From the NCBI RefSeq assembly GCF_001028135.1, contig NZ_LDNM01000016.1, forward strand, positions 1-64,000: a stretch of 64,000 bases of DNA, given 5' to 3'. The notes under the pieces are model-generated. The model had not been told where the DNA came from and did no database searches. It worked only from the letters and a program-made list of their open reading frames with translations. Both the position numbers and the translations under genes were made by a program. This DNA comes from Xenorhabdus griffiniae. GTDB lineage: Bacteria > Pseudomonadota > Gammaproteobacteria > Enterobacterales > Enterobacteriaceae. Shown one piece after another: positions 27,452 to 31,647 of this stretch; within the stretch, counting starts at the first letter, position 1, and every line of letters starts with the position of its first letter.

Positions 27452-28132
27452 TTACAAGAAGAAATGGCGAGCCAATAACGGCGCAGTAAAGTTTTTTTTC
27501 AAATAAAAACCTCTGGGCAACGTCATAATTGGCTGGCCGTATTCTCCTATTGCGTCTGTCAGTGCTCGGCTATTGGCGGCCTTGGGGCGCAATTGCAGTA
27601 CTTCACCATGACGGGCAGTAATGCTTTCGACCTTTCCTAATACAATAAGATCCATCAGTTCTTCCCAATCGCGTCGCAGCAACTCTTCTTCAATCACATT
27701 CGGACTCCAAAGCAGCGGAGAGCCTACACGGCGTTCAGATAATGGAATATTTCTTTCCCCCTCAACCGGTATCCACAGGACGCGGGACAATTTACGCCTG
27801 ACGTGGCAGTTTGCCCAGGTAATGCCGCTATTACCTGTTAAAGGAGCAACACAGACAAAGGTTGTTTCTAATGGATAACCTTTGCTATCCACAGGGATAG
27901 TTTTCAACTCGACACCAATATGTTCAAAATCTTGTTCAGGTTTACTGCCCGCATTTGCGCCTAAATAGTATTCAAGCAACATACCGACCCAACCTTTATC
28001 ACGTTTTAAATTGGGGGGAATGGAGAGCCTGGCCAACGCAGCAAGTTCACCCATAGATAAGCCAGCCAGGGAATGGGCACGATTGAAGAGTTGTTGTTCA
28101 TTTTCAGGCGGTGCTGGCGGTGTAAAGTACAT
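27452..28132 (-). CDS. mutH: DNA mismatch repair endonuclease MutH
   Basis: Nicks the unmethylated strand at hemimethylated GATC sites when activated by MutS-MutL. 226 residues. The type II restriction-like active site is intact: Asp68, Glu75 and Lys77 in [29 protein letters not shown] and the C-terminal [20 protein letters not shown] closely follow E. coli MutH. It implies a Dam-directed repair system. It is oriented away from the 770 bp gap that leads to leuB. Confidence 0.95.
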
Positions 28133-28690
28133 GTTATAGAGTATACTTTTTGTTGGTTAAAAAATGTTCACATGAATTTTTGAAAACCATTATTAATTTA
28201 TCGTTAGCATGATCATTTTGATAATAGCATGATATAAAAGATTTTTTCATTGATGTTTGCTGTATTAAAAATAGACTCATTATGATTGTTCACCTATTTA
28301 CAGTGATAATAAACAGGATCTTACACCATGTTATCCACAGATTTATGGGATAAGTGATAAAAAGTGAGATCACTGGTTTGATTTACAGCGCTAATGAAGG
28401 ATATTTTCTACAAAAATAGGCGATTTTTGTTTAACTAAAAGGCATATCCTGTGGATAAATTCACCTGTGGCTAATATTTGCTCATTGCGAGGAAAGCTAA
28501 AAATTTTTATCAGTAATAGGTAATGTTAAAAGGGGTGTAAAATGCATTAACGTAATGAAAAATAATGATTATTTATTTTGTGCTATAGAGAGTGTAAAAA
28601 TATGTAATAAAAGTATACCCGTTTTACCCCGCTCTTTTTCACATACATATCCACAGAAAAAGTGAATAAAATGGTTCTGGCCAGACAATA
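28133..28690. other. Gene-free AT-rich region with DnaA boxes
   Basis: About 560 bp between mutH and the putative SgrS RNA with no plausible coding frame on either strand. It holds the DnaA-box cluster listed separately and GATC sites at 28211, 28317 and 28368. In E. coli the gene divergent from sgrS is sgrR; no sgrR is seen here. Confidence 0.55.
28331..28655. promoter_or_regulatory. Cluster of DnaA-box sequences
   Basis: Two exact consensus boxes, TTATCCACA at 28331-28339 and its complement TGTGGATAA at 28450-28458, lie with two single-mismatch boxes, TGTGGCTAA at 28466-28474 and ATATCCACA at 28647-28655, within 325 bp of AT-rich DNA. Two of the boxes are 16 bp apart in the same orientation. 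Binding by DnaA is inferred from sequence only. Confidence 0.55.
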
Positions 28691-28708
28691 AATGTTTATA
28701 ACTTTAGC

Positions 28709-28868
28709 TTTTCCTGTGAATTAACGCTTCTGGAAGCGTAATCTACGCAGATTTAAAATCAAGCCAGCCAAAAGTGTTCATTTTTACTCATCTTATGCTG
28801 CGTTTACCTCTGATTTGTTGAGTATTGGTCTTTTTTACCAGCCAGTAAGCTATCTTACTGGCCTTTTT
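28709..28868 (+). ncRNA. sgrS: Probable SgrS-type Hfq-binding small RNA
   Basis: The 3' end has the architecture of enterobacterial SgrS. A seed TTGAGTATTGGT (28818-28829) shares TGAGTATTGGT with the ptsG-pairing region of E. coli SgrS as I know it. A small stem TGGT/ACCA with a U-rich loop follows, and then a strong terminator with a T-run. It lies next to the leu operon on the opposite strand, as sgrS does in E. coli. The 5' end is set from a possible promoter (TTCTGG 28675, TATAAC 28697) and is uncertain; an alternative (TTGTGC, 17 bp, TATGTA near 28582-28610) would make it about 260 nt. No SgrT-like reading frame and no sgrR neighbour are seen. Expected role: base pairing with ptsG mRNA during sugar-phosphate stress. 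Confidence 0.62.
28841..28868 (+). terminator. Intrinsic terminator of the SgrS-like RNA
   Basis: GCCAGTAAG-CTAT-CTTACTGGC is a perfect 9 bp stem followed by CTTTTT on the plus strand. On the minus strand no T-run follows, so it serves a plus-strand transcript rather than leuB. Confidence 0.85.
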
Positions 28869-28900
28869 CAATGCCTATATTTCCCTTTGGTTAGATTTTT

Positions 28901-31647
<2,747 letters not shown>

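Follow-up and report, generated by a model that had tools for sequence, protein, structure and literature searches.

Between mutH and a putative leuB gene of Xenorhabdus griffiniae lies an interval of 768 bases without any frame of 80 codons. The interval belongs to the window analysed here, which is the whole stretch of 64,000 nucleotides from this organism. The original prediction placed in it, at 28675-28868 on the plus strand, an SgrS-type small RNA, perhaps a minimal, RNA-only SgrS under a different activator. The locus raises the question of whether such an RNA is still at work here, or whether the element is what remains of one. Our analysis indicates that it is very probably a decaying relic of an sgrR-sgrS locus and not a new working RNA. 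The features discussed below are as follows.

27452..28132, minus strand: mutH, the conserved left neighbour (Pfam MutH), whose product matches named Xenorhabdus contigs best, with Xenorhabdus sp. BG5 nearest at 97% identity
28725..28817, minus strand: sgrR pseudogene relic, the last 31 codons, 65% identical to residues 523-553 of X. khoisanae SgrR, with two in-frame stops (tblastn)
28804..28815, no strand: approximate deletion junction; about 1.7 kb is absent relative to sgrR-bearing relatives
28810..28868, plus strand: remnant of the SgrS 3' end, consisting of seed, U-loop stem and terminator and matched by model R1 (see below)
28818..28829, plus strand: seed TTGAGTATTGGT, one substitution apart from the clade form TTGAGTAATGGT
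28826..28840, plus strand: short stem TGGT/ACCA with the loop CTTTTTT, between seed and terminator (sequence and R1 alignment)
28841..28868, plus strand: intrinsic terminator, with a perfect 9-bp stem at 28841-28862 and a T-run at 28864-28868
28901..30040, minus strand: putative leuB, the conserved right neighbour, named by sequence and synteny

Two observations on the surroundings are recorded here. No leuC or leuD frame was found beyond leuB in the window. Among 30 Xenorhabdus genomes, leuC exceeded the TIGR00170 cut-off in three only (G001, G004 and G018), and a frame of 434-485 amino acids with a partial LeuC match was present in 29 (all except G001); it is possible that the LeuCD enzyme has been replaced in Xenorhabdus. 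Upstream of mutH are two perfect DnaA boxes, TTATCCACA, inverted and 119 bp apart (28331-28339, plus strand; 28450-28458, minus strand). The pair occurs at near-identical places in each of the seven Xenorhabdus intergenic regions examined, that of the window among them, and might be a DnaA-control site. In E. coli, DARS2 is located near mutH.

The 3' end of the element carries the SgrS-like properties that the original prediction had described. The perfect terminator with its T-run was seen, and it is the one terminator-like site observed in 28130-28900, against a shuffle mean of 0.2. The 11 consecutive bases said to be shared with the ptsG-pairing seed of E. coli SgrS could be read from the K-12 sequence (NC_000913), in which TGAGTATTGGT is identical to the window. 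The U-loop stem was also found where it had been placed. SgrS was compared by its nearly invariant seed of ~13 nt near the 3' end. In the R1 alignment this seed is present in the window, with one substitution relative to its own clade, and the Rho-independent terminator with a preceding stem-loop is present as well. That the window agrees exactly with the E. coli seed is in part a coincidence: the clade seed is TGAGTAATGGT, and the single A-to-T change that separates the window seed from it produces, by accident, the base found in E. coli.

The Rfam SgrS model (RF00534) gave no match in the window or in 28500-28900. Its best score in the X. griffiniae genome was 10.2 bits, below the gathering score and elsewhere than the module. 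Such a sub-threshold score had been named beforehand as a sign against SgrS. The score came out as named, but it does not discriminate, because the same model also misses SgrS at six sgrR-bearing Xenorhabdus loci and in three Photorhabdus genomes. The Rfam negative is therefore weak evidence. Since the Rfam model is blind to sgrR-linked Xenorhabdus SgrS, we built our own model, R1, from seven SgrS 3' ends (Brenneria, Hafnia, Ewingella, two Serratia, Rahnella and Yersinia; alignment A1). These are the best Rfam SgrS matches of all seven other genomes searched. Two of the seven are above the Rfam cut-off, all seven share the seed, and none comes from Xenorhabdus or Photorhabdus.

R1 matched the window at 28810-28868 with 52.9 bits (E 9.2e-10). 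In the whole genome the module was the sole good match (E 6e-8), the next having an E of 1.84. The score is comparable to those of Photorhabdus SgrS with the same model (51.8-55.1 bits). A second alignment, A2, and its model, R2, were made from 14 of the 19 sgrR-linked sgrS sequences, five Photorhabdus near-copies being omitted; R2 is fitted to the clade itself and was therefore excluded as evidence. Since the R1 match is unique in the genome and the 11-mer is shared with E. coli, the last 59 bases (28810-28868) can securely be taken to descend from SgrS; the descent is claimed for these bases only and not for the whole of 28675-28868. The predicted kinship with SgrS thus held, and so did the synteny of sgrS with the leu genes, the sgrR-sgrS of relatives being found at the same place. 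In E. coli, too, sgrS lies near the leu genes. It is notable that a true SgrS end was recognised from the sequence alone.

The remainder of the element is of a different nature. The predicted start at 28675 was not supported, as SgrS homology begins only at about 28810. The middle of 28675-28868 is, by its translation, an opposite-strand relic of sgrR, because the last 31 codons of SgrR match 28725-28817 with two stops. The statement that no sgrR neighbour is visible consequently holds for an intact gene only; the C-terminal part of sgrR is there in decayed form. The SgrR_N domain was not found in the X. griffiniae genome. The stretch 28675-28869 was also considered as one RNA and rejected: its fold had a z of -1.98, with 6 of 200 shuffles equally good, and it consists mostly of sgrR relic and flank. 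The predicted lack of an SgrT frame agrees with a scan of frames by length, in which 28666-28810 had no plus-strand frame of at least 20 codons. Two plus-strand frames of this length overlap 28600-28900, one at 28555-28665 and one at 28815-28904, and the second crosses the terminator. Of the 19 compact relatives, L075 and L094 were examined, and in neither does a frame of at least 20 codons lie wholly inside the 5' part of sgrS. An SgrT frame occurs in most, not all, SgrS homologs.

What has been lost from the locus can be seen by comparison with relatives. A search of 99 genomes (its own included) with 28675-28875 gave a match in all 29 other genomes of the genus. In six loci (L035-L040), two blastn blocks of the query sit about 1.7 kb apart. 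The gap in X. khoisanae (L035) is occupied by a 553-codon minus-strand gene, which is SgrR (PF12793, 148.5 bits; NCBIfam SgrR, 944.7 bits against a cut-off of 476), and the SgrR proteins of the other five sgrR-bearing loci are 82-92% identical to it. Of 30 Xenorhabdus genomes, six encode a full-length SgrR_N domain and two more have fragments of it. One of the six, G021, was tallied as sgrR-bearing although tblastn splits its sgrR into two overlapping pieces, which suggests a frameshift near codon 370 (open frame of 393 amino acids). In Photorhabdus, sgrR lies beside mutH at the same place in all 13 loci found among the best 80 of 386 matches. At these 13 loci, as at the six of Xenorhabdus, sgrR is divergent from a compact sgrS of ~100 nt. 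In 10 of the 13 Photorhabdus loci the end of leuB is ~2.5 kb past the sgrR start, leaving space for leuC and leuD.

Between sgrR and sgrS, the intergenic sequence in Xenorhabdus and Photorhabdus shows a striking likeness to that in E. coli (AACTCC...CAATTTT...TATATTAAG...ATAAT), with at least one change in many rows. Neither an intact divergent sgrR nor this conserved promoter region is present at the window locus, and the motif TATATTAAG is absent from the mutH-leuB gap. Compared with the ancestral layout, the window has thus lost the sgrR body and the 5' half of sgrS, together with the promoter that lay between them. A scan of 28130-28900 gave no promoter-like site on the plus strand, but the scan is weak, as it finds a site in X. 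khoisanae and none in P. luminescens.

These facts would be explained by the following course of events. The ancestor would have had the order mutH, sgrR (minus strand), sgrS (plus strand) and leu genes, in which sgrR and a compact SgrS (~100 nt) were transcribed divergently from the conserved intergenic promoter. About 1.7 kb would then have been deleted, in one or more events, and with it the sgrR body, the first half of sgrS and the promoter between the two. What stayed behind is the end of sgrR, some 31 codons in decayed form, joined directly to the final 59 nt of sgrS. We infer that X. griffiniae neither makes this remnant nor uses it as SgrS any longer. In the sgrR-bearing relatives, the SgrS seed would pair with the manX-manY gap and so block translation of manYZ, genes of the mannose-type PTS, under sugar-phosphate stress. 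Such pairing, predicted from the sequences and the known E. coli site, is most likely the action of SgrS in these species.

The state of the seed in other species is consistent with this course. The seed 11-mer TGAGTAATGGT is retained in all 19 sgrR-bearing loci versus 2 of 10 sgrR-less loci that have the seed region (Fisher 1e-5; 0.007 for Xenorhabdus only), in a test that ignores kinship and in which four of the ten sgrR-less rows belong to one clade. The two sgrR-less genomes with the ancestral seed are G008 and G009, and G008 also keeps the promoter stretch and a complete sgrS. It follows that loss of sgrR by itself is not immediately fatal to sgrS. Most or all of sgrS is retained with changed seeds in G013 and G016, and the 3' module alone is retained in the window and in the three species closest to it. 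The four-species clade of the window has three seeds, TGAGTATTGGT in the window, TGAGTGATGGT in one species and CGAGTCATGGT in two, which would be the expected look of lost constraint, these related rows not being independent.

A tree based on mutH and leuB plus a portion of manY was rooted on the sgrR-bearing Photorhabdus; in it, G027 and three Photorhabdus rows have less than half of the columns filled. The sgrR state changes seven times by parsimony (bootstrap range 6-7), and strongly supported branches force at least four changes. Since Photorhabdus keeps the same locus, the changes are most simply losses.

The targets of SgrS were also considered. Complementarity to the local ptsG leader, which the original prediction had proposed as a check, had nothing to act on, as ptsG was not found above the TIGR02002 cut-off in X. 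griffiniae and there is thus no local leader to pair with. The same was true of all 30 Xenorhabdus and all three Photorhabdus genomes. The three Yersinia, Serratia and Hafnia genomes all have ptsG above this cut-off, and the ptsG leaders there, for example GCACTATTACTCAGGAGC, are suitable partners of the SgrS seed. The best match of the ptsG model is nagE in X. griffiniae and in the sgrR-bearing G024 and G003, and a pattern list search of nagE leaders gave no exact seed-like match. A second nagE-like EIIC frame, shortened to ~390 codons, was observed on X. griffiniae contig C15; a longer match there has one in-frame stop.

Exact complements of the seed in ten genomes amounted to 89 matches, 66 of which were inspected by eye, some being sgrS itself. 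Among those inspected, the manX-manY gap is the recurring context before a start codon, in five of the six sgrR-bearing Xenorhabdus. Other recurring contexts (L206/L258, L216/L246 and L256/L261/L266) were judged by eye to lie within or antisense to apparent coding frames and were set aside. Photorhabdus matches in L212 and L241 have a common context. The sixth sgrR-bearing Xenorhabdus (G024) could form an 11-nt pairing at manX-manY with a changed end, and in all three Photorhabdus this site is present too, there with a wobble. In P. luminescens, the seed-complementary TTACTCAATGA occurs twice in the manX-manY gap (L310), giving two possible SgrS sites. The identities of manX and manY in X. khoisanae, and of manY also in X. 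griffiniae, were checked with NCBIfam models (mannose IIAB, 532 bits, cut-off 400; IIC, 338 bits, cut-off 278).

The predicted duplex between a genome's own seed and its own gap has -18.1 to -25.2 kcal/mol in sgrR-bearing genomes (shuffle p <=0.04 in 9 of 9 tested), and -8.5 to -19.2 kcal/mol in ten sgrR-less genomes (p <=0.05 in 2 of 10). For the window, the prediction is -15.9 kcal/mol with an internal mismatch and a shuffle p of 0.15. This duplex includes an unbroken run of 10 pairs, of which two are G-U as we read them; it is weaker than in the sgrR-bearing species, yet present. The window gap is ACCATTACTTA and the seed TGAGTATTGGT; both are changed, and the full match is not restored. 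The exact man-site 11-mer is found in 14 of 24 sgrR-less versus five of six sgrR-bearing Xenorhabdus genomes. Because so many sgrR-less genomes keep it, conservation of the site does not come from SgrS alone and is no proof of its use by SgrS. According to the review PMC4021124, SgrS of E. coli pairs between manX and manY and thereby prevents translation of manY and manZ, whereas the SgrS of Erwinia and of Yersinia does not regulate its own manXYZ. The target manXYZ is therefore not universal.

Against the reading of the element as a relic, its 3' module has kept its whole structure, and its R1 score is on a par with that of Photorhabdus SgrS. Another explanation, which is compatible with a relic, is that the terminator hairpin alone has been selected as an end signal on the leu side, the seed being a passenger. 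The hairpin could stop plus-strand transcription into leuB or shield the 3' end of the leu mRNA. In favour of such selection, hairpin and T-run are found, with a mismatch in places, in 10 of the 14 sgrR-less species without a seed (L045-L052, L056 and L061). They were not found in the other four, G027 being covered for the stretch fetched; the T-run, moreover, is on the plus strand only, the window has no plus-strand gene just upstream, and the deletions could simply have missed the hairpin. We regard selection of the hairpin as unlikely, though worth keeping in mind.

Less probable still is an active minimal SgrS. Transcription of the 59-nt module would start at a new promoter or come from read-through, and the RNA would bind Hfq and, without any need for SgrR, repress manYZ or some other, new target. 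The module still has its seed, stem, terminator and U-tail, it is shared by the six closest relatives on the tree, and the 10 contiguous pairs predicted with the organism's own manX-manY gap also speak for it. The module further recalls the minimal base-pairing region of E. coli SgrS that Maki reportedly described in 2010. On the other side, the native promoter motif is lost, the weak scan saw no plus-strand promoter-like site, and the seeds of the four closest species vary without restoring full pairing with the man gap. We prefer a relic to a minimal SgrS because the native promoter and activator are gone, ptsG was not found and the seed is changed, and the RNA-only SgrS under a different activator originally proposed is quite doubtful. 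A chance resemblance of an unrelated terminator, to which the sub-threshold Rfam score might point, has a negligible probability and is refuted by the match to an independent model (E 9e-10) together with the conserved place and the adjoining sgrR relic.

The relic can be placed among known systems. With the SgrS of RF00534 (E. coli, Yersinia, Serratia and Hafnia) it shares the seed, the U-loop stem, the terminator and the U-tail. It differs in having no promoter, 5' half, SgrT, intact sgrR or ptsG target, in its seed, which is substituted relative to its own clade, and in its score under the Rfam threshold. The compact SgrS that stands beside sgrR in Photorhabdus and in six Xenorhabdus species has the same place and the same 3' module and would be the ancestor type; it keeps sgrR, the promoter, the invariant seed TGAGTAATGGT and ~100 nt, whereas the window keeps the last 59 nt only. 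The pairing predicted in Xenorhabdus falls at the same position of the man operon as the E. coli manX-manY site described in PMC4021124. In the sgrR-bearing Xenorhabdus the seed core itself can pair over 11-12 nt, whereas site and seed are both changed in the window.

On balance, we lean towards the view that Photorhabdus and some Xenorhabdus run an SgrR-SgrS circuit free of ptsG and of SgrT. Its compact RNA (~100 nt), invisible to Rfam, would pair by its seed over 11-12 nt with manX-manY and control a mannose-type PTS. The circuit would have been dismantled repeatedly in Xenorhabdus (seven times by parsimony), sgrR going first, then promoter and seed, and the terminator last, with the window at a late stage. 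Our literature search found no report of SgrS in Xenorhabdus or Photorhabdus; an earlier one may be contained in the key survey of SgrS homologs, Horler and Vanderpool 2009, or in Lu 2011. The larger lead is this compact SgrS, apparently free of SgrT and of ptsG, which occurs in Photorhabdus and in a minority of Xenorhabdus and is possibly aimed at manXYZ.

The window element on its own is a pseudogene-like remnant. Together with its relatives, it forms a natural series of the death of a regulatory RNA, in which activator and promoter are gone, the seed drifts and the terminator remains. The series also hints at an SgrS circuit that survives without its textbook target ptsG and that is missed by the Rfam model.
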